From positions 1 through 40,190 of the IMG/VR virus record IMGVR_UViG_3300034072_000852: a DNA stretch of 40,190 nucleotides; one strand, 5' to 3'. Source of the DNA: a virus. The position numbers were made by a program, and so were the translations under genes. The notes below the pieces were generated by a model, which was not told the DNA's origin, did not search any database, and saw only the letters and a list, made by a program, of their open reading frames with translations. Position 1 is the stretch's first letter. Each line of letters opens with the position of its first letter. Below, piece by piece: positions 7,656-26,463 of this stretch.

Positions 7656-7712
7656 GATTTCTTTCTAGATGTAAAAAGTTGTTGTAATAGTCCAGGCTAT
7701 TAATATGCTATT

Positions 7713-8375
7713 TTATTTTTTCACAAAAACAGCACGCCAGTTGATCGATTTGACGAATTGATCGAGTTCTTTGGGTTTGACCGACAGCGCAATGAACTGT
7801 TGGTTATGGATTTCCAGCTTTCGACGGGCGATCTTGCTCATTAGGAAATGAACAGCCTTGACCATTTCCCGAAGTTCACGATTGAGGTATCGAGGTTCGT
7901 AGTTACTTAACGAATCAGTGGTGGTAGGAGCAGTGGAGAACAGATCCTTCTTTGCGTCCTCCATGTCTTTCCGGTCTTCCTCGATCTTCTTGACTTCGTC
8001 GTTGTATTTAGGGGACAGCCAAATATCCTTATCGCCCTTGGTATCCAGTACTACAGGAATCGAGGGCGTTTCATCGAGCTTCTTGTAAAGCTGGATGATG
8101 AAATTAGACAGTCGAATCTCTCGATCGATATCGTCGATAAAATCACTGATGACATCCAACTGAATTGGTAGATTCAGATCACCCTTGGCCGTCACGAAAG
8201 ACATGATGTCTTCCTTGAACATGGGATATAGGCGAGACGTCTCGCGAACGCGCTTGCGCATCTCTTCATTGCGCTGGAGTTCGCCATAGTAGATCGAAGT
8301 AGGAGACTCATGCTTCTTGTTTTGAAGTATGTCCTTGTAGAAAGATGGAAGTTCGTCGACAATTGTTTTAGTCAT
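7713..8375 (-). CDS. Unknown charged helical protein
   Basis: 220 residues from ATG 8375 (CAGAG upstream). A longer reading to 8612 is open but would run through the intergenic promoter region and into the divergent gene, so I reject it. Not recognised. It is strongly charged, with a Lys/Glu/Asp-rich stretch around residues 115-150 (EVKKIEEDRKDMEDAKKDLF) that may be a coiled coil. It is divergent from the 8562-10741 unit, with 186 bases of AT-rich spacer between them. Confidence 0.65.
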   Translation of the reverse strand: MTKTIVDELPSFYKDILQNKKHESPTSIYYGELQRNEEMRKRVRETSRLYPMFKEDIMSFVTAKGDLNLPIQLDVISDFIDDIDREIRLSNFIIQLYKKLDETPSIPVVLDTKGDKDIWLSPKYNDEVKKIEEDRKDMEDAKKDLFSTAPTTTDSLSNYEPRYLNRELREMVKAVHFLMSKIARRKLEIHNQQFIALSVKPKELDQFVKSINWRAVFVKK

Positions 8376-8561
8376 GATTAAACTCTGTGTTGGTTGGGCG
8401 AAAGAGTCTCTTAAACATCGAGAGGTCTCTACTCTATTTATACAGTACGTATTATTAATACAAAATACAAGCATTGGCGCCAAATCTAATGAACATATAG
8501 GCACTTGCCTTAAATTGTATGTATTGATTAAATAAACTTTCTCTTCACTAGGAGTGGCGCT
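8376..8561. promoter_or_regulatory. Divergent promoter region
   Basis: 186-base AT-rich spacer between the minus-strand start at 8375 and the plus-strand start at 8562. It contains TATTTATACAG and TATTATTAATAC stretches and, towards the plus-strand gene, TTGTATGTATTG. A TATG core is what I recall for phiKZ non-virion polymerase promoters, but TATG is short and common, so the exact promoters are not resolved. AGGAG lies seven bases before ATG 8562. Confidence 0.45.
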
Positions 8562-9404
8562 ATGGATGATCTGATTACTTTGTTTGTGCAATCGAACTAC
8601 ACCGAGCAACAAGCGGAGGATATCTTTGAAGCGATTGGACTCATGCGAGTCTTTAACTACCTGGATCCTTTTCTCCCCATGGAAGACTTGTTGATGAATG
8701 AGTCCTATGAGGATCCCATTGTCATGGTTGACAAGTTCTCATTGATCATCCTGAACGCACAGGCGTACCTGTTAGATCGTCACGGTATCTCTTTGTCGGA
8801 AGACACTACATTGGCCTTCAATAACCAAGTGCTGCGCGTGATGTTCCAACTACAACGTCTAGAAGATCCAGTTCCAGTACTGCGTGTATTGGAATCCGAC
8901 AATGACGACTCTATCAAGTTGTGTCAGATCCTGGAGATGTTCACCAATACTCCAGATACCACGTTCTTGCAGATCGTAGATACAGTTCGTCCAGTTTGCC
9001 TGAAGCTATTGGCTGAATACCTGTACGAACAAGAAGAGACGCAAAAGCTAGCTACCAAAGAGCTACCTATCTTGAAAGAGAATGTGCGTTTGTTTACCAA
9101 AGTCTTCGGGATCAACGAAGCAGTTCGAATCATCATGGACTCCGATGTCATCATGGGAGAAGACTTCGAGTTGTATCTGCCTTTGTACGACGAACTACGT
9201 GGTTTGATCACAGATGAAAACATGTTGGTCCAGACACTGGTGTTCCTGTTACTGTACTCGGGCAACGGTACACTCAACCCTATCGCTGTTTATACAGAAT
9301 ACGCCGACCGCTTGGTCGGCGATCTGGAGACTGCAAATCGCTTGGGTAAGGTCATCGCGGAGATGATCACCAAGATGACCCGACATAAGGAGCAAAATGC
9401 ATGA
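8562..9404 (+). CDS. Helical protein translationally coupled to RNA polymerase beta' fragment
   Basis: 280 residues, ATG 8562 with AGGAG seven bases upstream. Not recognised. Predicted almost entirely helical, acidic, rich in Leu, Glu and Val, with no membrane segment. Its stop overlaps the start of the beta' gene by four bases (ATGA), so the two proteins are probably made together and may interact. If the beta' gene belongs to the virion polymerase, this could be an assembly partner or a packaged accessory protein; that is inference from coupling only. Confidence 0.72.
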   Translation: MDDLITLFVQSNYTEQQAEDIFEAIGLMRVFNYLDPFLPMEDLLMNESYEDPIVMVDKFSLIILNAQAYLLDRHGISLSEDTTLAFNNQVLRVMFQLQRLEDPVPVLRVLESDNDDSIKLCQILEMFTNTPDTTFLQIVDTVRPVCLKLLAEYLYEQEETQKLATKELPILKENVRLFTKVFGINEAVRIIMDSDVIMGEDFELYLPLYDELRGLITDENMLVQTLVFLLLYSGNGTLNPIAVYTEYADRLVGDLETANRLGKVIAEMITKMTRHKEQNA

Positions 9405-10741
9405 AACGCTTAGACTTTTTGAAAGGGTCTTTCCTTAACAAGAGGTATTTGGAAAGTGATTGGTGGGTTCGCTGTATGTCCAATTTCAGTGATCCGGATC
9501 CAGCACAGGTACCCAAGCAACCATTTACGCTGATCCGGCAACCATGGGGCTTGGGTACTTATGATCAGAATCTAGAGATCCAGCCTATTGAAGACTACTC
9601 TGGCAAAGGGCCGTTGTTCGTAGCTAAAGACCCAGTCCATGTAGACCAGACGTGGCTACCGAACATCACAGCACCGATGGATACCACGTTCGGTATCTTG
9701 GTTAGTAATGCTGTTTTGCTGGCTGAGGTATTTGGAGCGAAGATTCCTTACATCAACAAGGAAGTGAAGATCTCTGAAATTGAAAAGATCATCATGCCCC
9801 GGTTGGAAAGCAATCCGGACAACTATGTACCCGGTCAGATCGTAGCGGTTCCCAGCTCTGTCACGGATCCTCAAAAAGAAAAGATCTATGTCTACGAATA
9901 TTTGAACCTGACTAAAGGTATCGAATTGATCGCGACAGTGATGGATCTGTTCACAGTGGGCCTGACCCAAAAGACACTGCTTCCTCCTCCTGGTATTGAG
10001 GAAAAGAAGAAACAGATGCTTCAGCGCCCAGGTCTGAATCTGAATGACCCTATTCAAATGGCTGCATTTGAAAAGGAACTTTTGGAATTCGACTATGACT
10101 ACCTCAAAGGCGATCCAAGTCTGGACAAGTTCGCAAGTGGCAAGATCCTCAAGGACAGCCGAAAGAAACTGTTCTTATCCATGGGCGCAGAAGGAGGCTT
10201 CCGAAAAGACGGAGGCATCACTGGTATCTCCCGCTCTCTGTCAGAAGGACTCCCTACTGACCCTGATCAATACGTAGCGACGATCAACGGATCCCGTGCT
10301 GGTTCATTCTCTCGTGGTTATGAGACCATGCAAGGTGGCGTGGCTGCTAAGCGAATGCTGGCCGCTTCTAATAACTACGTGATCGTGGAAGGTAACTGCG
10401 GATCGACCATGGGTATTACTCGCAAGTATTATCCTTGGCTAGTGAACTCTCTACGAGGACGCACAGTCATCAACGGCTCTACGCAAGTGAAAATCGGCGA
10501 CGGTGAAGATGTCAGTAAGTATCTAGGCCAAGTAGTGAGAACCCGCTCTCCCATGTACTGTCGTCTACCTGGGGAAGAGATCTGCTCGACATGTGCTGGT
10601 GATGCTATGGCTAAATACAAGACAGGTATCGCTTTGCCACTGACTGAAATCTCTCACGCGATTTTGACGGCATCTATGAAGGCGATGCACACTAACTCGT
10701 TGACGGTTAATGACTTTAACCTCGATGATCTATTCACGTAA
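9401..10741 (+). CDS. Phage multisubunit RNA polymerase beta' fragment, probable virion polymerase subunit (phiKZ gp80-like)
   Basis: 446 residues. INGSRAGSFSRGYETMQGG (about 295-313) matches the bacterial beta' segment GARKGLADTALKTANSG before the trigger loop. NCGS with C333, then C387, C395 and C398 (CRLPGEEICSTC), reproduces the second beta' zinc site (E. coli C814, C888, C895, C898). LPLTEISHAILTASMKAMHTNS matches the trigger-loop helix (GEAIGVIAAQSIGEPGTQ). The protein stops just after it, so it covers only the middle of beta'. It is clearly distinct from the second beta' gene at 16823, so it belongs to another polymerase. Size and gene order relative to the beta/beta' pair fit phiKZ gp80 of the virion polymerase, as I recall it. 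The beta' identity is firm; virion assignment is inference. Confidence 0.85.
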   Translation: MKRLDFLKGSFLNKRYLESDWWVRCMSNFSDPDPAQVPKQPFTLIRQPWGLGTYDQNLEIQPIEDYSGKGPLFVAKDPVHVDQTWLPNITAPMDTTFGILVSNAVLLAEVFGAKIPYINKEVKISEIEKIIMPRLESNPDNYVPGQIVAVPSSVTDPQKEKIYVYEYLNLTKGIELIATVMDLFTVGLTQKTLLPPPGIEEKKKQMLQRPGLNLNDPIQMAAFEKELLEFDYDYLKGDPSLDKFASGKILKDSRKKLFLSMGAEGGFRKDGGITGISRSLSEGLPTDPDQYVATINGSRAGSFSRGYETMQGGVAAKRMLAASNNYVIVEGNCGSTMGITRKYYPWLVNSLRGRTVINGSTQVKIGDGEDVSKYLGQVVRTRSPMYCRLPGEEICSTCAGDAMAKYKTGIALPLTEISHAILTASMKAMHTNSLTVNDFNLDDLFT

Positions 10742-10763
10742 AAACGGACAGGGACATGAGATA

Positions 10764-10949
10764 ATGTGCGATGCGGCTTATCACTTTAACCAGGCTCTGA
10801 AGTACTGGACGAAGCTCAACACCGAATGCCTTCAGGCGATATGTGGTCACTCAACGATTAAGAATTGGACAGATTCCCTGGCTGATTCGATGGTTGAGAA
10901 CCAACTTCAAACCTTTCGATTTTTAAATACATTCTTCAACAGCAATTGA
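10764..10949 (+). CDS. Small unknown protein
   Basis: 61 residues from ATG 10764, with CAGGGA ten bases upstream; it lies between the beta' stop and a strong stem-loop. Not recognised. It has no membrane segment; aromatic and Asn-rich at the C-terminus. It is the only open frame in the 226 bases between the beta' gene and the stem-loop, and the transcript apparently ends after it, which supports it being real. Confidence 0.45.
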   Translation: MCDAAYHFNQALKYWTKLNTECLQAICGHSTIKNWTDSLADSMVENQLQTFRFLNTFFNSN

Positions 10950-10967
10950 TTAAAAATCATATATAAA

Positions 10968-10991
10968 CCAGTCCGGGGAAACCTGGACTGG
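10968..10991 (+). terminator. Terminator stem-loop with GAAA loop
   Basis: CCAGTCCGGG-GAAA-CCTGGACTGG, a 10 bp stem (one G-T pair) closing a GAAA tetraloop, after the plus-strand RNA polymerase unit and 45 bases before the next plus-strand gene. Confidence 0.75.
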
Positions 10992-11036
10992 CCTGTATAA
11001 GGTGGGTATACCTTAAACAACACCCAAGGAGTAGTT

Positions 11037-11930
11037 ATGGATTTCTATCAAAATAACCAGGGTCAAGGCGGCCAGCCTGAATCTCGCCCTGGATTCACTG
11101 AACAACCGATGAACTTCGGTCAAAGCAGCAACCAAGCACCTGCGCCTTCTCAAAACAGCTACTCCGGTGGCAGCTATCAGAACCAAGCTCCACAACAGCA
11201 GCAGCCTCAGTACACCTCGACTGGCGGCGGAGGCAACAATGGTGGTAATTGGCAAAACCGTCAAGGTGGAAACAACGGCGGTAACTGGCAGAATCGCCAA
11301 GGAGGTGGTGGTAATTGGAATCGCAATGGTGGCGGAGGTGGCGGTGGCGGTAACTGGAAGAATCGTCAACAACCGAAGCCTCTGACCCCTGAGGAACTGG
11401 AAAAGCTTAAGCTCCCCAAGACTGCTGTCATTACCGGTAACGGCCGCGCGCCTGATCAACTGAAGCCTTTGATTGCAGAAGCTGGCAACATCCTGGCTCA
11501 CCATGGATATACCATCCGTGCATCCTGTATGGACGGTTTTGACAAAATGGTGATGGAAACCATTCCAGGTGTCGAGCTTCACATTCCGTGGAAGAACTTC
11601 AACCAAGTCCAGGGCGAAGCTTCTTATTTCAGCAACGACGAGTGCAAGGAATTTGCCAAGCGCTATTTGCCTGAATGGAGTAACATCAAGGAAGTACAAC
11701 AATCGTTCTATGCCAAGAACGTGCGTCTGATCCTGGGCAAGTACCTGAAGCAACCATGCCAGATTGTCATCATTTGGTCTGAAGATGGATGTGAAGGTCC
11801 AGCTACCCGCACGATGCAGTCCGGTCAAGCCGGTCACGTCGCAGCGATTGCTAAGGCGATGAACATCCCCGTCATCAATCTCTCTAACCCCAACGCAATC
11901 CCTCGTTTGCGTCAATTCTTGGAGTCCTAA
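11037..11930 (+). CDS. SLOG/DprA-like Rossmann protein with Gln/Asn/Gly-rich N-terminus
   Basis: 297 residues, ATG 11037 with AAGGAG upstream. The first ~115 residues are low-complexity, rich in Gln, Asn, Gly, Ser and Trp, with tandem GGNWQNRQ-type units around residues 65-110. The C-terminal ~170 residues begin AVITGNGRAPDQLKPLIAEAG and contain a buried strand CQIVIIWSEDGCEGPATRT followed by GHVAAIAKAMNIPVINLSN. This order (G-R-x-P strand-loop, later strand with charged loop, G-T-x-x helix) fits the SLOG/DprA/LOG superfamily, which binds nucleotides or single-stranded DNA. The low-complexity arm could bind nucleic acid or drive condensation. It is followed three bases later by 11934-12875, presumably co-transcribed. 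Fold call moderate; function unknown. Confidence 0.62.
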   Translation: MDFYQNNQGQGGQPESRPGFTEQPMNFGQSSNQAPAPSQNSYSGGSYQNQAPQQQQPQYTSTGGGGNNGGNWQNRQGGNNGGNWQNRQGGGGNWNRNGGGGGGGGNWKNRQQPKPLTPEELEKLKLPKTAVITGNGRAPDQLKPLIAEAGNILAHHGYTIRASCMDGFDKMVMETIPGVELHIPWKNFNQVQGEASYFSNDECKEFAKRYLPEWSNIKEVQQSFYAKNVRLILGKYLKQPCQIVIIWSEDGCEGPATRTMQSGQAGHVAAIAKAMNIPVINLSNPNAIPRLRQFLES

Positions 11931-11933
11931 ACA

Positions 11934-12875
11934 ATGTCGAAGCAAAACAACGTATTCAACAAGTCCACTCAAGCCCCGCAAACTGATCCAGTTGCAGAGG
12001 CACACGCCAAGGCCCTGGCTGAAGCTGCTGCCAAGGAAGCACAAGGTTCCAGCGAAGCACAAAAGCCTGCTGATACAGAATCTGCGAGTGAGGCACCTGT
12101 CCCTGTGACTGAGGCATCTGTGCCTGGTACCGAAGCGCCTGCTGATGCTGGCAAAACCGAATCGTCCACCCCAGCAGTGGTGGATCTGGGCGCCCTGGTC
12201 TCTGAAGCCAAGGATGTCAAGGATCCAGCACCTCAAGCCGTGAAAGTTACTTCTGATGTCACAGACACCACCCAAGCGAAGCAACCAAGTGAACAACCCA
12301 CCATCCAGGCTAAGCCCAAGGCCGTCGATCCCAAGATCGTCAAACGACCCGATGGCGCCGCTCCTCGCCAAGCTTCCCCTCAAAGTACGGGTAACGCGGC
12401 GAAAGTCGTGACCTCCAATGAGTTCGCAGCGATGATCGCAGCTGAGAAGGTCAAGGGTTCTACCTGGGCTGTCGATGTGATCTCGTTCTTCGAGCGTTAC
12501 GTTGAAGTCATGGCTCCTCGTCGCATCACTTCGCCTGCTGACATCCTGAAGTGGCAAGAAGGTCTGTACGACAAGCTGGTGTCTATTATTGAGCGCTCGC
12601 CCAGCCATGAGTTCCCACGTCTGTGGCGTCTGGCTATCGCTTACTTCGGTGAGTATCGCTCTGCGTGTTTCAGCCCTGTGTACTACAGCCGTGGTGCCAA
12701 GGAATGGAAACGCGATCCCAAGCAGTATCAGATTCTGACGTCTCTGACTAACCTGCTGGAAGCAACTGCCCTCGATCCCAAGAGCGTGAACCAAGTGGTG
12801 AACGTCAATGCGATCGTCGGTGAGAAGTTCAGTGAAGAAGGCCGCGGTCGTGTGATCGCTTTCTATCTGAAATAA
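11934..12875 (+). CDS. Unknown protein with long Ala/Pro/Glu-rich N-terminal arm
   Basis: 313 residues; ATG three bases after the previous stop, with GGAG at the end of that gene as ribosome binding site. Residues 1 to about 155 are low-complexity (Ala, Pro, Glu, Thr, Ser, with repeats such as TEASVPGTEAPA) and probably disordered. The C-terminal ~155 residues form a compact, Trp/Tyr-rich, probably helical domain (for example SFFERYVEVMAPRRITSPAD). Not recognised. Two successive proteins with a disordered arm plus a folded domain suggest they work together. It ends in a strong bidirectional stem-loop. Confidence 0.68.
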   Translation: MSKQNNVFNKSTQAPQTDPVAEAHAKALAEAAAKEAQGSSEAQKPADTESASEAPVPVTEASVPGTEAPADAGKTESSTPAVVDLGALVSEAKDVKDPAPQAVKVTSDVTDTTQAKQPSEQPTIQAKPKAVDPKIVKRPDGAAPRQASPQSTGNAAKVVTSNEFAAMIAAEKVKGSTWAVDVISFFERYVEVMAPRRITSPADILKWQEGLYDKLVSIIERSPSHEFPRLWRLAIAYFGEYRSACFSPVYYSRGAKEWKRDPKQYQILTSLTNLLEATALDPKSVNQVVNVNAIVGEKFSEEGRGRVIAFYLK

Positions 12876-12887
12876 AAAACAAACCAC

Positions 12888-12921
12888 TACCACTCCCTCT
12901 GCGAAAGCAGAGGGAGTGGTA
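12888..12921. terminator. Bidirectional terminator
   Basis: 15 bp perfect stem TACCACTCCCTCTGC with GAAA loop between convergent genes ending at 12875 and 12927. Confidence 0.85.
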
Positions 12922-12926
12922 AGTGT

Positions 12927-13370
12927 TTATGCTTGCTCGATTTGGTAGACGAATTCGTCAATCTCTTCAAAGATCAAATCCTTGAAGCTTGGATGCAGAG
13001 TGATCTTCCCATTCTTGCGTGTACCTTGAGCTTCGGCAATTGTGGCTTGGAGATACATCGCTGTGTGATTGATGGCTTCATCCTTGTTACGATCAACAGT
13101 CAGCTTGTTATCCAGACTCATGAAAGCAGAGATGAATTTCACTAGCAGTTGGAAGGTTCCTCCTACGTGCTGGAAACGATCAAGGAGTGCGTGTTCTGTG
13201 CGAAGTGGATCTTCCAAATCAATCCGCGGGCAATTCGCCAATAGGCTATACAGAGAACTGATCATGCGCGGATCCAGCTGCATATTCATAATGAATCCAG
13301 GATTGATCTTCACCAACATGCTCAGTGCAGAACGAGCGTACTTGTAGTTTTCCAGAGTTTTGAAGTTCAT
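12927..13370 (-). CDS. Unknown protein
   Basis: 147 residues, ATG 13370 with AAGGAAA upstream. Not recognised. Predicted mostly helical; hydrophobic positions are spread evenly and there is no membrane segment or cysteine cluster, so it is probably a soluble cytoplasmic protein. Strong stem-loops on both sides (12888-12921 and 13394-13425) isolate it; a TTTATAC element between the upstream stem-loop and the start could be its own promoter. Confidence 0.65.
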   Translation of the reverse strand: MNFKTLENYKYARSALSMLVKINPGFIMNMQLDPRMISSLYSLLANCPRIDLEDPLRTEHALLDRFQHVGGTFQLLVKFISAFMSLDNKLTVDRNKDEAINHTAMYLQATIAEAQGTRKNGKITLHPSFKDLIFEEIDEFVYQIEQA

Positions 13371-13393
13371 GTTTTTCCTTGTGTATAAAGATG

Positions 13394-13425
13394 ACTACAC
13401 AGGAGGCTACGGCCTCCTGTGTAGT
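13394..13425 (-). terminator. Terminator after helicase gene
   Basis: 14 bp perfect stem ACTACACAGGAGGC with 4-base loop, directly after the stop of the minus-strand helicase gene. Confidence 0.82.
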
Positions 13426-13426
13426 A

Positions 13427-15037
13427 TTAGTGGTCCTCGCCAATACGAGCACCGTAGTTGAAAGTCTTGATAGACTTAGTGATGTCTTTGAATAACTCAA
13501 ATCTGAACTGAGTGTACTGGAAGTGCTTTTTGATATCCCGACAAAACGGCATATACAAAGTCACCTTTCGTCCACCCGGTAGCTTTCTCAAGCGACCAAG
13601 CACTTGGAGATTTGATTTACTACTATTGACCATGGTTGTGCAGATGTTGCAAATCAAGTTTGGAATATCCACAGCAGTGCCACTGGATTGAATCGTACTG
13701 ACAGTGATATCAGAAGACATCAGATCAGCATACTTGTCGCCTTGTGCAGCGCAGTATCGAGCAATCTTCAATTGCGGATATCTGAGCGTCAAAGCCAGGA
13801 TGAATTTATCGGCCATGTCCACCGTAGCAACATAGACAATAGCTTTCTCTCCCTCTTGTCGGACTTTCATGAAGTCCCAGTCTAGGATACCTGTGACGAT
13901 CTGGATGTAACCCTTAAGAAGTCTTGGATAGCGAAGAATGCTTTTCTCCAAGACTGCATGAGAGTAATCATTGCGTCCAAATGCCTGGTACCGTATTTTG
14001 TGTAGAAGATCTCTAGCGAAATGGTACCCGATGAATTCCACATCGATGTACTTCTCCATTTTCACTTCTTCATAGCGTTTGATCTTCGGAAAGATCACGT
14101 TTTGCACACGCTCAACAAAAGCATCCTCAGCACGCATAGTGCCGGATAGAGCAATGAACTTAACGCCGTGTAGATGTGCTGCCAGTTTAAAGACTTTATA
14201 GATGTGTTCGTGAGCTTCGTCTACACCTACTAGACCCACACCAGTCAATGCTGGTAGCTGCCATGGCACTGCACCGTAGTCCTGTAAACAACCCTCAGGG
14301 TCATCCTCATAATCACTGATAAAAGCATCCATGGTCGTCAGCGTAATAGCGATGACCTTGGGTAGCTTCCTGGAGCCTTGCTCCTTGCAAATATGAATCA
14401 GACCACGTAACTGCGCCTTGGAGTCTACTGGCATGATCTCAGACTTCTTGATCTGAAGATTAGATTCCAAATCACCGGTGACATCTTTATCACCCACCCA
14501 TTTCACATGGTACTTGGGTAAAACAGATATAATCACCCGTTCACTAAGCTTTTCCATGATCCCACAGAAGGTAACGGTTTTACCACCTCCAGTAGGGATG
14601 GCAATCAGCTTAGAGAAGTGATCTCCGATGTCGACTTCATCCAAAGCAAACCTTCGAGCATCTTCCTGATAGTCTCGAAGAACACGCCCTTGTTGCAGAC
14701 GAAAGTCGATCTTATCTGGTTTGTGTGTCTTGATGTATTCGATGGTCAAGTCTTCAGCTAATAACTGAACAGCACGCAGTTCAGTCTGTAGACCAGGGAA
14801 TTGTCCTTTATGAAACCAAAACGCCTCCCCGTCATTTAGCTCAGCTCCGTAGATTTGAGTAGGTACACTAACAGTGACCATCTCTCCTCTGGAGTTCTCA
14901 ACCTTCTTATCAGTTCTGACTACCCAGTCATTGAGTACCCGTCTACAAGCCACCTTGATACGAGGGTCATTTGCAATGACTTTAAATCCATGCGTAAAGA
15001 CCTGAATAGTCCCGACATCTTTCTTACTATGCAGCAT
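13427..15037 (-). CDS. SF2 DNA/RNA helicase (DEAH box)
   Basis: 536 residues, ATG 15037 with AAGGATG upstream. Superfamily 2 motifs are clear: Q-like RDYQEDA (about 121-127), Walker A IPTGGGKT (147-154), DEAH box VGVDEAHE (273-276), motif III ALSGTMRAED (about 296-305) and motif VI VLGRLRKLPGGRK (about residue 500). This is an ATP-driven nucleic-acid translocase. About 110 residues precede the helicase core, resembling the arrangement of T4 UvsW (small N-terminal domain, then RecA-like domains), so a role in recombination-dependent replication or fork reversal is plausible but inferred. Transcribed from the spacer at 15038-15126 and ended by a stem-loop. Confidence 0.9.
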   Translation of the reverse strand: MLHSKKDVGTIQVFTHGFKVIANDPRIKVACRRVLNDWVVRTDKKVENSRGEMVTVSVPTQIYGAELNDGEAFWFHKGQFPGLQTELRAVQLLAEDLTIEYIKTHKPDKIDFRLQQGRVLRDYQEDARRFALDEVDIGDHFSKLIAIPTGGGKTVTFCGIMEKLSERVIISVLPKYHVKWVGDKDVTGDLESNLQIKKSEIMPVDSKAQLRGLIHICKEQGSRKLPKVIAITLTTMDAFISDYEDDPEGCLQDYGAVPWQLPALTGVGLVGVDEAHEHIYKVFKLAAHLHGVKFIALSGTMRAEDAFVERVQNVIFPKIKRYEEVKMEKYIDVEFIGYHFARDLLHKIRYQAFGRNDYSHAVLEKSILRYPRLLKGYIQIVTGILDWDFMKVRQEGEKAIVYVATVDMADKFILALTLRYPQLKIARYCAAQGDKYADLMSSDITVSTIQSSGTAVDIPNLICNICTTMVNSSKSNLQVLGRLRKLPGGRKVTLYMPFCRDIKKHFQYTQFRFELFKDITKSIKTFNYGARIGEDH

Positions 15038-15126
15038 CTATCTACATCCTTCTATCCTGTTTCTAATCTAAGTTGCCATATTTGATCCTATTGTATCTGT
15101 GTATTTTGTGAATATATGAAAGGTAA

Positions 15127-15155
15127 CTCCTGTACTCCTAGGTGGAGTACAGGAG
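15127..15155 (-). terminator. Intergenic stem-loop / terminator
   Basis: 12 bp perfect stem CTCCTGTACTCC with a 5-base loop just after the stop of the 15161-16183 gene. Confidence 0.78.
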
Positions 15156-15160
15156 ATTAC

Positions 15161-16183
15161 TTAACCCTTTTGTTGAAGATATTTGAGGCGGTTCTGAACT
15201 TTTTGAAGTCCCTGGTTACGCGTTTCTAATTCGATTTGTGTCCTAGTGAGGATTTCAAAAGGCGTGTAAAGGTTACCGACTTCCCCATCGCCTAGTCGGG
15301 CGTAAAGCGGGTACTTCAGATTATCCGGGTTCTCTTGTACCGTCTTCTTGAGTGCAATGTAGAGCAATCGGTAATCAGTAGCATCCGTCAGATACGCCAG
15401 TCCTTCGAACACCTCGGGACATTTCCTGTTACCTGGGATAGGTAGGTTCGAAGTCAAAAGACCATTCAGAATAGCTGTGGCTGGATCTCTGGTGATCGCC
15501 CGAACCACTCGCCCGAATTTAACCATAAATCCATCATCTTTTTCTTGAATGGATTCAATAAATACATCTCCGAGCGCCGCTTTGTCATTAGAGTCAACCA
15601 ATGCGTCTGTGTAGATTTTCAATTCTTGTTCATTCTGGACGAACATCTCATAGAAAACTACGTTGTTGGTAGAAGCGATCAATTCCCCAACCTCATCCTT
15701 GATATCATTCAACAGTCTGTTGAAAGTACCTACAGAATAGGTTTCAAAGAACATCACACTGTCGGCTTTCTTTTCAATCAAGAAAGCGATCTCACCGCGA
15801 GCAATGATATCAGTGATTCGTTGCTCCCAGTGCTCTCCTGTCAACAGTGAGCCATTGGTGGCGTGCAACACGCACTCCAGCTCATGCATAGACTTGACGG
15901 TGTAGTAATGGATCAGATCACAGATGCTTTTCCGCTCTGGTTTTCGAAGACCTTCAGGCAAAGGAAGTTTCGCTTCTTCCAGAATCTTCAGTAGCGGTGT
16001 AATAGTGAGAGCTTCTCCCTTGATCTTCAGTGTTAATAGCACGAGAGATGGGTTATCTCCGATTAATTTAGCGTCCCAGTTGCACCAGCTGCTGGATAGA
16101 CGAAGGCGCTCTGTATGAGCAACAGCGGTTTTAATAATGCACTTATAAATGGTGTAGCCGTCAATTGTTTCAAATTCGATCAT
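15161..16183 (-). CDS. Unknown protein
   Basis: 340 residues, ATG 16183 with a weak AAAGA site. Not recognised. Predicted mixed alpha/beta, acidic, with a Gln/Arg-rich C-terminal helix (NRLKYLQQKG end). It has no membrane segment. It follows the 16197-16763 gene by 13 bases without a stem-loop, so both are likely on one transcript that starts downstream of the 16787-16816 stem-loop. Confidence 0.68.
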   Translation of the reverse strand: MIEFETIDGYTIYKCIIKTAVAHTERLRLSSSWCNWDAKLIGDNPSLVLLTLKIKGEALTITPLLKILEEAKLPLPEGLRKPERKSICDLIHYYTVKSMHELECVLHATNGSLLTGEHWEQRITDIIARGEIAFLIEKKADSVMFFETYSVGTFNRLLNDIKDEVGELIASTNNVVFYEMFVQNEQELKIYTDALVDSNDKAALGDVFIESIQEKDDGFMVKFGRVVRAITRDPATAILNGLLTSNLPIPGNRKCPEVFEGLAYLTDATDYRLLYIALKKTVQENPDNLKYPLYARLGDGEVGNLYTPFEILTRTQIELETRNQGLQKVQNRLKYLQQKG

Positions 16184-16196
16184 GATTGTCTTTCGA

Positions 16197-16763
16197 TTAC
16201 TTAATATTCAGTTTGTCTTTAAAAGTTTGAAGTGCAGCAGCCGTGATACTTATTCGGTTTTCCAAATATTCTTGCCACTGTGCGACAGTGTAACACTTAG
16301 GGGTAAAACGTAAAAACTTAGTACTGACGAAGTCATATTTCGAATATAAGACATAAGGATATCCATTTGTGTTACCCAGAGTTCCTTTATTATATTGGAA
16401 CATAAAAAGAAGCTCTTCTGCTGGGTTACTGATAATACAGACCTCTCCGCTGTCAAACTCAGTAGGTTGAGGACTCTGAGCTTTTGTCGGTAACGGAAAG
16501 TTCCCCAGTTTACAGAATAAGAAGACATAATACAAAAGCTTTCCCGTCACGTCGGATGGGTAATTACTAAAATCAAAGATGGCGATTGTTTGGCCTTCAT
16601 TGATTTTCATGTCTTTGATCTCCGGATCAGTCGGTTCCGGTACTTCTACGTTGATATTACCCAAAAATCTAGTTCGTGCTACTTTAATAGCGTGTGTGTT
16701 TACTTCAGCACGAGACGCGTCGATAATCACTTTGAAACGTATTTGTTCAGTCTTTTCTTGCAT
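16197..16763 (-). CDS. Unknown protein
   Basis: 188 residues from ATG 16763 (AAGAAA upstream). An upstream ATG at 16790 lies inside the stem-loop and is rejected. Not recognised. Beta-rich look (IRFKVIIDASRAEVN, INVEVPEP, IAIFDFSNYP), slightly acidic; it contains EVCIISNPAEELLFMFQYNKG near the middle. No membrane segment. Probably co-transcribed with 15161-16183. Confidence 0.65.
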   Translation of the reverse strand: MQEKTEQIRFKVIIDASRAEVNTHAIKVARTRFLGNINVEVPEPTDPEIKDMKINEGQTIAIFDFSNYPSDVTGKLLYYVFLFCKLGNFPLPTKAQSPQPTEFDSGEVCIISNPAEELLFMFQYNKGTLGNTNGYPYVLYSKYDFVSTKFLRFTPKCYTVAQWQEYLENRISITAAALQTFKDKLNIK

Positions 16764-16786
16764 GATTTTCTTAAAATAATAAACTA

Positions 16787-16816
16787 TCACTCTGTGGTCT
16801 TTCGACCACAGAGTGA
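16787..16816 (-). terminator. Terminator after beta' gene
   Basis: 13 bp perfect stem TCACTCTGTGGTC with 4-base loop directly after the stop of the minus-strand beta' gene. Confidence 0.82.
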
Positions 16817-16822
16817 CTGGCT

Positions 16823-18877
16823 TTAGTACACGATCTCAGATTCGCCTCTGAGTCGGCGCTGGTAGTTGGAGTTCACATACGTACGGCTATTGTACGTCAG
16901 ATACTCCTTAGGACGGATGAATACATCCATCATGGTATCCACACCCTTGCGACGATAGGAATCGGGATTGATCAGCAACGGAGCCCATTCTTGGAAACTG
17001 ACAGCAGTACCCATCGAACGGTTCCAGATCAACGCCTTACCAATACCAAGGCATGCAGTTTCACTGCCTCGACCCATCGCATAGTTATTGACACCAGCTT
17101 GTAGCAACGCGTACATGATCGCCTCCATAGGTGCGATATTAACGTCCAGCTTAGGCGTGACCAAGTCATAGACTTGACCCAGCACACGCACTGGTGCGTC
17201 TTCTGTACTACGTTCGGCCAGGTTTTCGAACTTGGACTCAATCAGTTCCGCGATTGCGTTACCGTGAGCAGAGAACGATACCTGGATATCAGGCAACGTG
17301 AAGATCACGTCGTCCGGGTTCCATTTATCCAAATGGATCACGAAGTTGTTACGCTCGTCAGTCTTATATCCATGTTCATGAATATATTTGAGCAGCTGAT
17401 AGGACATCGAAGCTTGTCGTTTGCCTTGTTCCAGTTTCAGGGTATCGGAGCCCTGGGAACCATCACGCGGCGAGTTGTACACGATTCGAATCTTCTCGAA
17501 GCTTGTGATACGCTCGGGATTGAACATGGTGATGTCTTCACTATTGACCACATCAACCAAACCCAATGCATCATCACGCGCCACAATCAGCCTTGGACTC
17601 CACTTCAATACGTCCGGTTGAAGGACATAGTCAGTGTTCTTGACACCTCGACGGAAATACAGTCGCAGATCATCCGTGAAGACGATACCGGAGCCTTGAC
17701 CCGAAGAGATATGGTGCTTGGTAGACAGCGTCTTCTGTGAGATCTTGGAGACCACAGTCGTAGCTGACACCACACCCAAGTTAGCCCAACGCGAGTGATT
17801 GTTGCTCAATTGACCGAAACACACCTGACACACACCGTGTGCGTCTGGATGTTCACACGTCAGAACAGAGCGCATCTGGATCGTTGTCCCTTCCAGATGC
17901 TTGTCAGACTCCTTGACATACTTCAGCTTTCCAGTGCCTGCTTCCACATAGTACTTACCGACCAAGTACTTTAGGTCGGAGTTACGCCATTCACCAGTCG
18001 ATTCGATAATCCCTGCAGGACGCACGAAGAATGGGATGGTCTTATGTGTTCCACAATCCTCATAGTGGATACGTTCCAGGACACACGTCTGTAGTTGCAG
18101 GCGTCGAGAGAAATACTCAGAGTCCTGCAATGGAGATTCAGTCGCGGACAAGTGCTCAGCAGAACCCCGGGAGTCCCCTGCGAACTCATACAGGTTGTTC
18201 ATACCAAACAGATAGTTAGACCGAGCCAGGTGTCGGAAGATGCGACCGTTGACTTCTTTAGGAAATCCACGAACACCAATCGACTGGCATACCTGATTCA
18301 GTTTAACTGCGCCACTGCGAACAGCTTTGACCATTCCATTGTTAGCGTAGGCTTTATCATTGTTGATAACGTCCCCGATAACCTTATAGACATGCTCGAC
18401 ACCCTTGGGGGATGCCGGTGAAGTCATGGAAGCTTCCCAGATCTTGGGATGGTACATCAGGTCAATACAATCCATGAGGTGGATCGTCTGCAGATGCTGG
18501 CCAGAGTGTTTTCGTAGTGCAACGTACAATTCGTTCGTAGCTTCCTGGATCACGAGCTGGATACGCTCGCGCTGCTCAGGAGTCACAAACTCGTAATGCT
18601 CCGCGATCATCTTGAAGATATTGGATGCTAGCTTCGCATGGCTGGAAGCTTGAAGCATCTTCGATCCCAAGACGTGGGTGAAGTGACACCCCTTGGTGAT
18701 TTTGACTTCTGGGAAATCCAAGAATATCCGCCAATAAAAGGAACTGGCAAATGTTCTCTTTCGAGTTACCTCGATAACCTCCCCGTCGTCAAACTCAATC
18801 TCGAACTTCTTGTCAAACCTCTCTAGTATTTCCTCTGGACGCTTATGAATAAGCTCGCGTATTTTGTATTTGTTCAT
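16823..18877 (-). CDS. Phage multisubunit RNA polymerase beta' C-terminal subunit, probable non-virion polymerase (phiKZ gp74-like)
   Basis: 684 residues from ATG 18877 (AGAAG upstream; a TTG two codons earlier is possible). Bacterial beta' landmarks are in order: MVKAVRSGAVKLNQVCQSIGVRG (about 182-204, like the segment ending in LAGMRGLM), EDCGTH (C275), then C341, C350 and C353 (VLTCEHPDAHGVCQVCFG), the full second zinc site, and LGVVSATTVVSKISQKTLSTKHH, matching the trigger-loop segment [24 protein letters not shown]. The catalytic NADFDGD motif is not here, so beta' is split and its N-terminal half is elsewhere. It lies right after the beta gene, as gp71-73 and gp74 do in phiKZ by my recollection. 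Non-virion assignment is inference. Confidence 0.88.
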   Translation of the reverse strand: MNKYKIRELIHKRPEEILERFDKKFEIEFDDGEVIEVTRKRTFASSFYWRIFLDFPEVKITKGCHFTHVLGSKMLQASSHAKLASNIFKMIAEHYEFVTPEQRERIQLVIQEATNELYVALRKHSGQHLQTIHLMDCIDLMYHPKIWEASMTSPASPKGVEHVYKVIGDVINNDKAYANNGMVKAVRSGAVKLNQVCQSIGVRGFPKEVNGRIFRHLARSNYLFGMNNLYEFAGDSRGSAEHLSATESPLQDSEYFSRRLQLQTCVLERIHYEDCGTHKTIPFFVRPAGIIESTGEWRNSDLKYLVGKYYVEAGTGKLKYVKESDKHLEGTTIQMRSVLTCEHPDAHGVCQVCFGQLSNNHSRWANLGVVSATTVVSKISQKTLSTKHHISSGQGSGIVFTDDLRLYFRRGVKNTDYVLQPDVLKWSPRLIVARDDALGLVDVVNSEDITMFNPERITSFEKIRIVYNSPRDGSQGSDTLKLEQGKRQASMSYQLLKYIHEHGYKTDERNNFVIHLDKWNPDDVIFTLPDIQVSFSAHGNAIAELIESKFENLAERSTEDAPVRVLGQVYDLVTPKLDVNIAPMEAIMYALLQAGVNNYAMGRGSETACLGIGKALIWNRSMGTAVSFQEWAPLLINPDSYRRKGVDTMMDVFIRPKEYLTYNSRTYVNSNYQRRLRGESEIVY

Positions 18878-18929
18878 TGACAACTTCTGAACCTAAGAGT
18901 TATTGCATTTGGTCGTTCTGATTCCTTAT

Positions 18930-18942
18930 CCCATATATAAAG
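18930..18942 (-). promoter_or_regulatory. Candidate early promoter box for beta' gene
   Basis: CTTTATATATGGG on the minus strand, 53 bases upstream of ATG 18877. A divergent member of the box seen at 21197, 26308, 26895 and 35870. Confidence 0.4.
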
Positions 18943-19000
18943 ACAACCACAGTCCAACCATGACTATGTACCATGGTCATCTTTATTTTATATATCCCTC

Positions 19001-21142
19001 TTAAGGATAAACCTTTCCCTCCTCGGGCACATAAACCATCTCAACACCATAACAGTGCAAGAAGTTCGTAGCAATCCCGATAGGGCGTGTATCACCATAG
19101 TCGAACTGAGTCCGATCGATGATATTGTCAATATTGCCGGAATGCTCACAGGAAACCAAAGCTCGCGCCATCTGCAGCTGTACCACAGGGTTGCTGGCTC
19201 GGTCCATCATGTCTGCGATCATCTCGGGGTCTTGAGTGTGAGCCGCATAAGCGCGAGCCTCGGATTCACCGATGGTTCGAGCTGGGCTGTCCTTCCATGG
19301 CTTGCTGTACTTATCAGCTTGGTTATGCTTGATCAATACTCCAAACGGACCATGGGCGGCAGTAGCGACAGTCAGAGTGTCTTCGGCTGTCTTGTCCAAG
19401 AGCATGATCGGCAATGGTGCGATCAAGATTGGATCCTTGGTAGGCTCGCTGTGTCCGTCTTCGATCAACTGGTGAGTCACGGGACCATAGCAGACAGGCA
19501 GCCATTGTTCCATATCCCACGCAGCCAAAGGAGCGGGCTTCTTGCAACCGATATCCCGAATGAAACGTGGATTATCCTCGATACATTCATAGACATGCAG
19601 ACGTTTGTATTTGACTGGCAGTCGATCCAGTCGCTCAGAGTGTTCGGGATTCACACAAGCATAGGTCTTCATCAAGAACTCCCATGCCTTATTGAACACC
19701 TCATCACTCAGATACTCGACTTCCTCCGGACTACATCCTGGCTTGAGACCAGTGATTTCCCGAAGAACTCGCCCAGCCTTGACAGCAGCAGCGCCGAACT
19801 GCATCAGATACAGTCGAGCGAAGTTGGTTCGCGCCACAGTACCATCTGGCGCCATGACCACGTCAGCCACATTACCGTCTGCGTCTCGGGGCATCCGGTA
19901 AGAAGGAAGGATCTGAGCAATCACGCCCTTGTCACCAGACAACGAAGTCAGCTTGGCACCCAAGGTAGGCAGCAGCTCATACTCAACGACAAACTCGATA
20001 TAGTATTCGTCCAGCGGTTCCTTGTTCATAATGCCTTGCAAGGGCTTCTCGTTATGAGCGCGACGCTTGTGGTCGCAGATCGCGCGAGCATGCACAAGCA
20101 TGGCTTTGAGTTCCTTGGAGAAGTTCGGTGTGTTAGTACCAAACTTCGTATAAGCCTCTCGGCAAATACGACGCTCACATTCCAGCAGTTCTTCGTTGAA
20201 ACGGATATATGCCTGGCGATACTTCTCCAGCTGCTGTGTCATTTGAGGCGGCAAAGCAGAAATGGTATCTGCATTACCGATGACCTTGATATCTACGATT
20301 CGACCACGATGGCCTTGACGAGCATAGATCGGTTCATCAAACGCATAATTGATACGCTTGGTAGCCGAGCGAGACATCGTCACGGGAGCCAGACCAGGTG
20401 CATATTCACGCAGCCACAGCAAAGCTCCGTCGTCTTCGGTGTATTCGCCGATATCGTAAAAGCCCTTGTAGTTCTCATCAGTTCCGATGTTGACTGGGAA
20501 CTTCTTCACACCAATGTTGGCGCTGCGGCGTTCGTAGACTTTATACCCCAGCTTAGGCAGACAGTCCTCATTGATCAAAACCGCGTCCTCAGCCACGATG
20601 TCAGCAGATGCCAGCATACAGTTGAGGTTGGTGGTCATCGTGTGGAAACCACCGATGTTCGCTGGTGTGTCCCCGAGAACTGTATCCTTGGCCAGCTTCA
20701 TGCCTGGTGAGATGTTCTTGAGATGGTCCGACAGTTTGTTGCGATAGCCGAAATACTGATGATACGACTTATGGTACGGGACGCATACCACGTCATATAG
20801 ACCAGTCTCGTCGTCAACAATAACCACCACAGTCTCGGGATTGAATCCCAGACTGCCTTGACCAACACCCCGTGGATATCGATCAATCGCTTGGAACACC
20901 CGGGCGTCGAATGGCACTCGTTCACTCGTAGTGTACTTACTGTACTCAACTTCCACCCCTGCAAGAGTGTAGGGTAGTTCCGCGCCGTCGATCACCAAGT
21001 GCTGGGATGCATGCGAACTCATCATCGTGGATCGAGACGGTGAGTTGTTTGTCAGAAATGGATTCCATGCATGGAAACCCACAACTTCAGGACGCATCTG
21101 GTTAACTTGGTGTTGACCTAGTTCACGTTGCGATTCTAACAT
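19001..21142 (-). CDS. Phage multisubunit RNA polymerase beta C-terminal subunit, probable non-virion polymerase (phiKZ gp71-73-like)
   Basis: 713 residues, ATG 21142. The N-terminus NPFLTNNSPSRSTMMSSHASQ (about 27-47) matches the rifampicin-pocket segment of bacterial beta ([21 protein letters not shown]). LTSLSGDKGVIAQILPSYRM (about 398-417, K405) matches the active-site segment GRHGNKGVISKI..EDMP, and DGTVARTNFARLYLMQFG matches GVPSRMNIGQ..E. It therefore covers roughly the C-terminal half of beta, including the catalytic lysine region; the N-terminal half must be encoded elsewhere. It is adjacent to and upstream of the beta' gene, the layout I recall for phiKZ genes 71-73 and 74. A candidate early box lies 55-71 bases upstream. 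RNA polymerase beta identity is firm. Confidence 0.9.
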   Translation of the reverse strand: MLESQRELGQHQVNQMRPEVVGFHAWNPFLTNNSPSRSTMMSSHASQHLVIDGAELPYTLAGVEVEYSKYTTSERVPFDARVFQAIDRYPRGVGQGSLGFNPETVVVIVDDETGLYDVVCVPYHKSYHQYFGYRNKLSDHLKNISPGMKLAKDTVLGDTPANIGGFHTMTTNLNCMLASADIVAEDAVLINEDCLPKLGYKVYERRSANIGVKKFPVNIGTDENYKGFYDIGEYTEDDGALLWLREYAPGLAPVTMSRSATKRINYAFDEPIYARQGHRGRIVDIKVIGNADTISALPPQMTQQLEKYRQAYIRFNEELLECERRICREAYTKFGTNTPNFSKELKAMLVHARAICDHKRRAHNEKPLQGIMNKEPLDEYYIEFVVEYELLPTLGAKLTSLSGDKGVIAQILPSYRMPRDADGNVADVVMAPDGTVARTNFARLYLMQFGAAAVKAGRVLREITGLKPGCSPEEVEYLSDEVFNKAWEFLMKTYACVNPEHSERLDRLPVKYKRLHVYECIEDNPRFIRDIGCKKPAPLAAWDMEQWLPVCYGPVTHQLIEDGHSEPTKDPILIAPLPIMLLDKTAEDTLTVATAAHGPFGVLIKHNQADKYSKPWKDSPARTIGESEARAYAAHTQDPEMIADMMDRASNPVVQLQMARALVSCEHSGNIDNIIDRTQFDYGDTRPIGIATNFLHCYGVEMVYVPEEGKVYP

Positions 21143-21196
21143 ATCGATAGTAGCCTTTCTTTTTAACTAACCGGTTGAGTCACATCGAAGATGCGG

Positions 21197-21213
21197 CTCA
21201 TATAAAGTATATA
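21197..21213 (-). promoter_or_regulatory. Candidate early promoter box for beta gene
   Basis: TATATACTTTATATGAG on the minus strand, 55 bases upstream of ATG 21142, matching the boxes at 26308-26324 and 35870-35886 at 14-15 of 17 positions. Confidence 0.55.
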
Positions 21214-21237
21214 CCAACTTAAAATTCTAGAAAAGCC

Positions 21238-21609
21238 ATGGCCTCCAATCAAAAACTCTACGAACTCCTGATTTACAGCAACGCCAGCTGGCCCATGTTT
21301 GATCCTTCAGTCAAGACCTGCATGGAGCAACACCTTCAATATCTCAAAACAGCTGGTAATGTCCGAGAGGTGCTTATTGATAATAAGTACAAAGGAAAGT
21401 ACTATGGCGACTTTTACGCGGTCTTGTCTGACCTCGGACTAGCGCCTAAGTATCATTACCTTACTTTGCTTCTCAATGGGATGACAAATCCAATTGAATT
21501 CGTCAACCAACTGACCACAGTGCGTCTTCCTGATACAGATATCATTGATCAGATTCTGTCTGTATATAATACAGGCAAAGCCAATCTTAAGACCGAACCA
21601 GGACAATAA
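21238..21609 (+). CDS. Unknown small protein divergent from RNA polymerase beta
   Basis: 123 residues, ATG 21238, AGAAAAG upstream. Not recognised. Soluble, Leu/Tyr-rich, probably helical. It is the only plus-strand gene between 12875 and the window end, sitting between the beta gene and the gene at 21668, and is closed by a bidirectional stem-loop. In phiKZ the flanking genes are consecutive as far as I recall, so this may be an insertion into the polymerase block. Confidence 0.6.
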   Translation: MASNQKLYELLIYSNASWPMFDPSVKTCMEQHLQYLKTAGNVREVLIDNKYKGKYYGDFYAVLSDLGLAPKYHYLTLLLNGMTNPIEFVNQLTTVRLPDTDIIDQILSVYNTGKANLKTEPGQ

Positions 21610-21623
21610 GAAAAATTCACACA

Positions 21624-21657
21624 TACCCAGATCTGTCCATTCGGGCAGATCTGGGTA
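21624..21657. terminator. Bidirectional terminator
   Basis: 12 bp perfect stem TACCCAGATCTG, extendable by three inner pairs to an ATTC loop, between convergent genes ending at 21609 and 21668. Confidence 0.82.
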
Positions 21658-21667
21658 GTGTCAGGTC

Positions 21668-23134
21668 TTAGCGACGCCAGTTAGCTCCGCGACGAGCTAG
21701 TGGTTCATCGTCATAAAGACCTCGGCTAGGTGCTGAGTAGCGACCATTATCACGCCCGTAGTCCCGTCCATAACCCCGAGGCTCTGGATCTTCGCGCCAA
21801 CCGCGCCCACGGGAAACAGGCTCTTCACGCCAACCACGACGACGATCTTCTTCGTCGTAACGAGAACCGTAACGACTAGTGCGACCGCGGGAATCATCGT
21901 ACTGACGACCACGGGGCTCGTAGCGTCGATTCTCTTCTTCGTAGGTCAGCGTGCTACGCTCCAGGTCTGGACGCTTGCGCAGAATGTCGCCGATGGTCTT
22001 TTGTCCTGTAGGCTTGGGCTCATTGGACTCAGACGACTGTCGACGATCTTCCCACGGCGGATCCACGGTGTCATCCTTTTCAGCTTCCCAACGCTGACGC
22101 AGGCGAGCCTTAGCGTCATTGTCAGAAGTTTGAGTAGGACGCTGAGTGCTTCGCACTGGAGGAGCATTTTCCTCAGCAGTAGGTTCAACCTGATTGCCCG
22201 ATACACCCATATTGCCAGGAAGCGCAGGGATTCTCCGATTGAAGACAGCCAGCTTAGCCACTCCATCTTCAGTCAGGAAAGTCTCCCACGGTGTCTTGAC
22301 CAGAATGGTATCAGTGCTGATACCGGCACGCTCCAGGGGTTCCTTCAGAGTTTCAGCGATCAGATTGATTCGATCACTGATCTTCTTGACGCTCATCAAG
22401 AACGACAGCAAGTTCGGCGCAAATGTATCGCCATAGCCGCTATTGTAAGCTTCAGACACATCGGCATCGACTTCTGGGAAGATAGCCTTTGCCAGTTGTT
22501 TGAAAGCTTTGTAGTCCTTAGCGCGGTACTTCTGATCAGTGCCTGGCTTGCATGGCTCTTCACCTTCAAACAGACGCTCAAACAGAGGAAACGCCACAGA
22601 ACACACACGCTGGTAGCTCTTACCGCCATGACGACCATTTTGTTTGACATACAGACGCAAAGGCCAGTGTGTCGAGTCATGCGGATGAGCTTTGATGTGA
22701 CCCCAGATGAACGAAGTCCAAGTGGCGATGGTCTTGTCTTCCGCATCCACCAAGTCCTTGATGAACTCGATTTGCTGAATCGACATACTCTTTTGCAGAT
22801 TGATGTCGGTGTGCAGGCGGATCAGACCAGAGCCCAGCGTACTGATCGACAAGATCAGTCGCATAGTCATCGCGCGCTTGTAGAACGCAAAGACTTCAGA
22901 CTCACCGCGGATAATCTGCTCACACAGCGGATGAAAGAAGACGTTGTTGTCAGGATCAGGGTTCTTCAAGTGTCCTGGGAACGGCAGAACCAGTTTACGG
23001 TTCATAACCATTACGTTATCAGGCTTCTTCTTGTCGGACTCTGGTTTGTGTACGACGAAGAAGTCATCATCTACCTGAAGACCAGCCGAATCCAGCAAGT
23101 CAAAGTAGAAATCCAAAATGGTAGGTTCGCTCAT
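21668..23134 (-). CDS. Unknown protein with Arg/Gly/Tyr-rich C-terminal tail (phiKZ gp70 position)
   Basis: 488 residues, ATG 23134 with GAGAAAC upstream. Residues 1 to about 310 look like a folded domain (for example SFIWGHIKAHPHDSTHWPLRLYVKQ). Residues ~320 to 400 are charged and Ser/Thr/Pro-rich, and the last ~80 are Arg/Gly/Tyr/Asp-rich with several RG and RGR units (RGRGWRED). RG-rich tails commonly bind RNA or single-stranded DNA. By gene order it would be the counterpart of phiKZ gp70; function not known to me. A nucleic-acid-binding role is inference from the tail. It is preceded by a stem-loop ending only 15 bases before the start codon. Confidence 0.68.
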   Translation of the reverse strand: MSEPTILDFYFDLLDSAGLQVDDDFFVVHKPESDKKKPDNVMVMNRKLVLPFPGHLKNPDPDNNVFFHPLCEQIIRGESEVFAFYKRAMTMRLILSISTLGSGLIRLHTDINLQKSMSIQQIEFIKDLVDAEDKTIATWTSFIWGHIKAHPHDSTHWPLRLYVKQNGRHGGKSYQRVCSVAFPLFERLFEGEEPCKPGTDQKYRAKDYKAFKQLAKAIFPEVDADVSEAYNSGYGDTFAPNLLSFLMSVKKISDRINLIAETLKEPLERAGISTDTILVKTPWETFLTEDGVAKLAVFNRRIPALPGNMGVSGNQVEPTAEENAPPVRSTQRPTQTSDNDAKARLRQRWEAEKDDTVDPPWEDRRQSSESNEPKPTGQKTIGDILRKRPDLERSTLTYEEENRRYEPRGRQYDDSRGRTSRYGSRYDEEDRRRGWREEPVSRGRGWREDPEPRGYGRDYGRDNGRYSAPSRGLYDDEPLARRGANWRR

Positions 23135-23149
23135 ATTTGTTTCTCAAAG

Positions 23150-23179
23150 ACTCATGGACCCGTTAAGGTCCATGAGTCA
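23150..23179 (-). terminator. Intergenic stem-loop
   Basis: 12 bp perfect stem GACTCATGGACC with 6-base loop between co-directional genes. Only 15 bases separate it from the next start codon, leaving no room for a promoter. Confidence 0.7.
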
Positions 23180-23186
23180 GGGTTGC

Positions 23187-24653: not shown

Positions 24654-24695
24654 TTGTATTTCCTTTTAAGTTAACGGAGGGCGAAATAGTTATGC

Positions 24696-26456: not shown

Positions 26457-26463
26457 AGTGTCA

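Follow-up and report, generated by a model that had tools for sequence, protein, structure and literature searches.

Two RNA polymerase beta' genes in a record of a phiKZ-like jumbo phage and a virion beta' chain that ends inside the trigger loop

The stretch of viral DNA analyzed here (the window) is the 40,190-base virus record IMGVR_UViG_3300034072_000852, and it carries two genes for parts of the RNA polymerase (RNAP) beta' subunit, at positions 9401-10741 and 16823-18877. Our results make it almost certain that they encode beta' fragments of the two different polymerases of a phiKZ-like jumbo phage, the gene at 9401 belonging to the virion RNAP (vRNAP) and the gene at 16823 to the nonvirion RNAP (nvRNAP), because the protein family matched by the first holds phiKZ gp80 and the PDB match of the second is PHIKZ074. 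The vRNAP protein encoded at 9401 ends inside the trigger loop, the mobile catalytic part of multisubunit RNA polymerases. Structure models suggest that the second trigger-loop helix probably lies on a separate beta' C-terminal chain (beta'C), behind an insertion domain, so that the loop would form only when the two chains meet.

Both genes are genuine open reading frames (ORFs). The vRNAP beta' middle subunit (9401-10741, plus strand; 446 amino acids) matches phrog_2962, the phiKZ gp80/SPN3US gp42 family, over residues 1-445 (E 2.7e-96) and is 24% identical to the counterpart in phiKZ, 26% to that in OBP, and 31% to that in FLC9. Within beta', it covers the part that follows the catalytic barrel and extends as far as the first trigger-loop helix. 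With VIA-align 2, its AlphaFold2 model (predicted local distance difference test [pLDDT] 86.7, 50 sequences) aligned over residues 9-442 to residues 9-401 of phiKZ gp74 (Z 10.7, root mean square deviation [rmsd] 7.6, 333 aligned) and over residues 10-442 to residues 15-406 of AR9 gp154 (Z 9.5, rmsd 6.5, 352 aligned), while several rows placed residues 2-428 on Escherichia coli beta' 521-933 and two rows reached residues 951 and 953. The counterpart of the bridge helix is a predicted helix of 36 residues (residues 288-323; positions 10262-10369, plus strand), located by the model and by an hhalign match to residues 756-906 of E. coli beta', within which the E. coli bridge helix (769-804) falls. 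The second zinc site (10397-10594, plus strand), located by conservation and hhalign, consists of Cys333, Cys387, Cys395, and Cys398, which pair in the hhalign comparison with C814, C888, C895, and C898 of E. coli beta' and are invariant in all 62 family members scored. The scored members were taken from 63 vRNAP beta' middle loci, one of which (L051, 695-2077) was dropped as the sole locus with an extension past the common C-terminal end, a repeat-like tail; they include the phage's own copy (L023) and near copies, and 50 remain at 90% identity. Of 50,697 phage records searched by tblastn with the 9401 protein, 302 gave a match at an E value of up to 0.01, all below 60% identity, a count that may omit records very close to the window's own, and in 262 of the 302 the match extended over 80% or more of the protein length. 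Pfam gave no match for the 9401, 16823, or vRNAP beta'C protein.

The second beta' gene (16823-18877, minus strand) encodes the nvRNAP beta' C-terminal subunit of the phiKZ gp74 family, with 684 amino acids counted from the ATG at 18877 (a TTG start would extend the ORF to 18883), and matches PDB PHIKZ074 with an E value of 8.9e-64 and phrog_3015 with one of 9.2e-140. Matches across the two families were weak (2.5e-8 and 6.9e-6) and fell in the shared zinc-site and trigger-loop region, in which the profiles of the two proteins matched each other with an E value of 8.2e-10. An earlier note on this DNA, made from the sequence alone, had proposed two distinct beta' genes, the second of them alone next to a beta gene, as the mark of a phage with separate virion and nonvirion polymerases. 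Our analysis corroborates this picture: both ORFs are real and fall into different families (phrog_2962 and phrog_3015), the ORF at 19001-21142 beside the second gene is a beta fragment, and no beta family match was found for the five ORFs around 9401 (7713-8612, 8562-9404, 10710-10949, 11037-11930, and 11934-12875). The outcomes that the note named as refuting its idea did not occur: the two proteins matched different phiKZ subunits (the gp80 family and gp74), and both matched RNA polymerase profiles.

The end of the 9401 chain is well defined. In the model, the final helix of 20 residues (411-430) closes with an invariant histidine, His430, and confidence falls over the last 16 residues; this first trigger-loop helix and the C-terminal tail occupy positions 10631-10738 (plus strand), as judged from the model and from conservation. 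All 62 members scored keep the histidine; 60 of them have 16 further residues before the end of the chain and 2 have 15. The members from Bacillus phage PBS1 and Staphylococcus phage PALS_2 likewise end 16 residues past it. The nvRNAP counterparts run on for 153 to 296 residues past the trigger-loop histidine in all 27 rows, which represent 23 of 34 nvRNAP loci (those left out being short pieces, near copies, and the copy of the phage itself), three named phages, and the window's own protein, where 296 residues follow His388. One statement in the earlier note needs revision: the second zinc site and the first trigger-loop helix are indeed present in both proteins, but the note had the 9401 beta' ending right after the trigger loop, when the chain in fact stops inside the loop, 16 residues past the histidine. 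The nvRNAP papers place the trigger-loop insertion domain (TLID) at residues 400-508 of AR9 gp154 and 396-533 of phiKZ gp74; from these coordinates and the ends of the model alignments at gp74 401 and gp154 406, the vRNAP chain therefore stops about 10 residues or less from the start of the TLID.

The remaining subunits were sought with the help of another IMG/VR contig, 167,687 bases long, that encodes an identical 9401 protein. The single stretch compared, window positions 7184-26871, is 100% identical to this contig over 19,688 bases. Both records are incomplete, and each was searched for the polymerase subunit families; a 272,393-base relative, whose counterpart of the 9401 protein is 56% identical, served as a further comparison. 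All five vRNAP subunit families are present in the phage, one in the window and four on the overlapping contig: the N-terminal parts of beta' (beta'N; E 3.6e-186, with the DFDGD motif present) and of beta (betaN; E 0), the C-terminal part of beta (betaC; E 4.1e-56, intact, with a TGA that is its own stop), and beta'C, a separate protein of 239 amino acids in the SPN3US gp244/phiKZ gp176 family (E 5.2e-56). The rest of the virion beta', which the earlier note expected to be either elsewhere or lost, is thus elsewhere, as a gene of its own. The gp55-type beta'N of the nvRNAP is also on the overlapping contig, in pieces (phrog_2987, E 6.0e-102), and the phage has two beta'N genes (phrog_2986 and phrog_2987).

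The beta'N gene of the nvRNAP is interrupted. The parts of this interrupted locus lie at 915-2084, 2138-3022, 3036-3359, 3421-3564, and 3555-3855 within positions 84500-90500 of the overlapping contig (L022), and the interruptions contain two group I introns (Rfam RF00028, 57.0 and 61.1 bits, with a cut-off of 50), the core of the first being preceded by an ORF for an HNH endonuclease (Pfam HNH_3, E 2.7e-11). The second hit opens with the NADFDG portion of the catalytic motif, and the last coding piece contains an in-frame TAA. The gene of the 272-kb relative is interrupted as well (G002:C1:36620-37741 and 39121-39243), after an almost identical position in the profile (380 versus 383).

The place of beta'C in the virion enzyme was approached through its AlphaFold2 model (pLDDT 82.4, 49 sequences), for which VIA-align 2 re-ranked 998 Foldseek candidates from the PDB. 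There were 32 rows with a Z of at least 2, and 31 of these were RNAP chains, identified as the largest subunit by titles and lengths. The three top rows were AR9 gp154 406-507 (Z 5.9, rmsd 3.6, 89 aligned), AR9 406-510 (Z 5.2), and phiKZ gp74 401-530 (Z 4.8, rmsd 3.4, 94 aligned), such that residues 7-105 of beta'C align best to the TLID of these two proteins, at Z values below 8. The aligned ends of the 9401 and beta'C models abut, at 401/401 in gp74 and at 406/406 in gp154. It is because the three top rows are phage TLIDs and because these ends abut that we place weight on the insertion-domain reading. Residues 109-239 of beta'C aligned to Thermus thermophilus beta' 1251-1469 (Z 3.6) and to Mycobacterium tuberculosis beta' 1011-1255 (Z 4.2); the trigger-loop histidine of T. 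thermophilus is residue 1242, so that 1251 onward would be the second helix.

Several results weigh against this reading. The Z values to the TLIDs are in the range, under 8, that the tool calls common, and five lower rows (Z 2.0 to 2.9) set the N-terminal half of beta'C on the part of bacterial beta' that follows the trigger loop, as at Vibrio cholerae 1150-1213 and T. thermophilus 1268-1330, in the same register as the published assignment. In a Foldseek search of the PDB, no match for beta'C reached an E value of 0.001 or lower, the best being a heat-shock protein (E 0.056); an RNAP beta' stood at rank 3 with a nonsignificant E value of 0.17. At the profile level, beta'C gave no match to the nvRNAP beta'C family or to E. 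coli beta', and its profile against PDB chain sequences gave at best an unrelated protein (E 0.38). A sliding-window hhalign comparison had its best stretches at the expected places but was not significant, since profiles with shuffled columns scored as high in 26 of 300 and 30 of 300 trials. Fraser et al. describe the TLID sequence as confined to nvRNAPs, and insert domains unique to each polymerase are described elsewhere in beta' (PMC7824862). For the assignment of two polymerases, the search of the two incomplete contigs did not turn up the gp123-type betaN of the nvRNAP (phrog_2943); it is present in the 272,393-base relative.

A natural fusion of the beta' middle and beta'C chains was found neither among the 63 loci nor among 5 further loci, two of which (899 and 903 codons) are beta' genes of cellular type and greater length. 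The beta'C model also matches, at rank 8 in BFVD, A0A8S5VG94 of Myoviridae sp. ctkfK18 (686 amino acids, named RNA polymerase subunit beta; E 8.3e-8, 263 alignment columns). This protein, whose length is close both to that of beta' middle plus beta'C and to that of an nvRNAP beta'C, may be either a natural fusion or a subunit of an nvRNAP.

Another explanation, which we regard as doubtful although it deserves consideration, is that the trigger loop is complete in the 9401 protein, its last 8 to 10 residues forming a short second helix, and that beta'C supplies only regions a17-a20. Such a short helix does appear in the model at residues 441-445, but it lies in a block with a mean pLDDT of 52, and residues 444-446 are below 50. 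The published assignment is in line with this explanation, in that Thomas et al. (PMC5105663) put the missing part at T. thermophilus 1260-1524 and match gp244 to beta' in region a20 only (E 0.05), a match seen again with a fused gp42 and gp244 profile (4.6E-20 for the whole fused profile). The five lower rows, in which this half of beta'C (the N-terminal one) falls behind the trigger loop, agree with that register; the same half fits the TLID better, however, and residues 109 onward fit T. thermophilus from 1251. The 9401 model aligns no further than gp74 401 and gp154 406, only a few residues past the start of the insertion domain. A loop shared by two chains is hence still the reading that we favor.

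Two further explanations concern the 9401 gene as a whole. With 446 amino acids and an end at the trigger loop, its product could look like a truncated, nonfunctional remnant of a duplicated polymerase that has lost its jaw, but this is extremely improbable: the same end and the invariant cysteines and histidine recur in every member scored, the match extends over 80% or more of the protein in 262 of the 302 phage records that have one, and the four partner vRNAP subunits are all present in the phage. On the strength of the conserved end and the complete subunit set, we reject a pseudogene. We give equally little credence to the idea that both beta' genes serve one polymerase as overlapping or alternative parts. 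The zinc site and the first trigger-loop helix are indeed common to both proteins, but two parts covering the same beta' region would be redundant in one enzyme, and the phage has two beta'N genes as well as separate families for the 9401 and 16823 proteins.

The vRNAP of this phage has beta' in three chains (N, middle, and C) and beta in two; by homology with phiKZ and AR9, it would be packed in the head, enter the cell with the DNA, and transcribe early genes. The beta' N chain brings the catalytic aspartates of the DFDGD motif; the middle chain brings the bridge helix, the zinc site, and the first trigger-loop helix; and the C chain would probably bring the insertion domain, the second trigger-loop helix, and the clamp region. 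If the C chain carries the second helix, the vRNAP would have no complete active site until its middle and C chains meet. The 16823 and 19001 proteins and the gp68-like protein encoded at 24696 would be part of the nvRNAP, made in the infected cell for later genes. A trigger loop split over two chains, if true, would act as an assembly check, catalysis being complete only after the injected subunits have joined in the cell.

Jumbo phages with two polymerases, the gp244-type subunit, and the presumption of a duplication have already been published, and the window represents a further member. All five families of the phiKZ and SPN3US vRNAP (gp180, gp80, gp176, gp178, and gp149 in phiKZ; gp240, gp42, gp244, gp241, and gp218 in SPN3US) are found here, with the same end of the middle beta' subunit and with gp79 and gp80 paired as in phiKZ, although the 9401 protein is 24 to 31% identical to the phiKZ, OBP, and FLC9 proteins. 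In PMC5105663, gp244 (phiKZ gp176) is the fifth vRNAP subunit, and particles lack it after the knockout of another vRNAP subunit. According to a 2020 review, no vRNAP had been purified and the data could not distinguish a duplication from two acquisitions for the vRNAP and nvRNAP, while Thomas et al. in 2016 presume an origin by duplication. We think it reasonably likely that the vRNAP trigger loop comes from two chains and that beta'C opens with the insertion domain carried there by the nvRNAP; the shared domain, not known outside phage polymerases, would then mean that both polymerases arose from one phage ancestor by duplication and not from two captures of a host enzyme. If true, the shared TLID would count as a derived character with a direct bearing on the choice between duplication and two acquisitions. 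No statement on a split trigger loop or on an insertion domain in the vRNAP was found in the available passages of the open-licence PMC literature.

The N-terminal part of the beta'C model aligns best to the TLID of AR9 gp154 and phiKZ gp74, at the matching place in beta'; the differences are that the domain would open a separate chain in the virion enzyme and that no sequence similarity was detected. The insertion in the trigger loop of E. coli beta', known as SI3, occupies the same place, and about 10 rows of the beta'C model fall at 944-1026 of E. coli-type beta', but with a Z of at most 4.0, below the rows of the phage TLIDs. The E. coli insertion covers residues 942-1129 (PMC7618050), and the fold of the phage TLID differs from it according to the nvRNAP papers.

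The nvRNAP genes of the window follow the order of phiKZ, with counterparts of gp68, gp69, gp70, gp71-73, and gp74, all on the minus strand. The beta C-terminal subunit of the gp71-73 family (19001-21142; 713 amino acids) matches phrog_3295 (E 1.3e-141) and Pfam RNA_pol_Rpb2_6 (E 7.6e-11), its gp71-73 name resting on its position beside the gp74 counterpart. A gp70-like gene (21668-23134; phrog_3520, E 1.4e-57, the family of phiKZ gp70) has the gp71-73 counterpart on one side and the gp69 counterpart on the other, an order shared with phiKZ, and is followed by a gp69-like gene (23187-24653; phrog_3141, E 6.7e-61, the family of phiKZ gp69) and a gp68-like gene (24696-26360; phrog_3209, E 5.7e-76). 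The last shares its family with phiKZ gp68, which is the sigma-like fifth subunit of the nvRNAP, and the window therefore has three nvRNAP subunits close together. In comparison with the phiKZ nvRNAP (gp55, gp68, gp71-73, gp74, and gp123), the gp55 counterpart is on the overlapping contig and is interrupted, with its two introns, the gp71-73 counterpart is one uninterrupted ORF, and the gp123 counterpart was not found in the two contigs. Near these genes, a superfamily 2 (SF2) helicase (13427-15037, minus strand; phrog_16 DNA helicase, E 9.6e-25; Pfam ResIII, E 1.9e-6) is possibly the Rad25-like helicase that PMC7824862 links to group 1 phage RNAP genes.

A gp79-like gene (8562-9404, plus strand; phrog_5038, E 1.1e-12) lies directly upstream of the vRNAP beta' gene with a 4-base overlap, and its family includes phiKZ gp79, which adjoins gp80 in phiKZ. 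The order of DNA polymerase, vRNAP beta', helicase, nvRNAP beta', and beta is that of the annotation of Pseudomonas phage OBP. The divergent DNA polymerase (2304-4130, plus strand; phrog_3011, E 5.3e-144, best stretch residues 24-464, no Pfam match) stands, with respect to the vRNAP gene, where the annotated polymerase of OBP is found. A minus-strand ORF at 11013-12893 was rejected as a gene, having no Pfam or PHROG match, while two plus-strand ORFs beneath it match phrog_768 and phrog_18957; the first of these (11037-11930; phrog_768, E 1.2e-21, no Pfam match) is a DprA-like recombination mediator. An SbcD-like nuclease subunit is encoded at 30827-31966 on the minus strand (phrog_100, E 3.1e-31).

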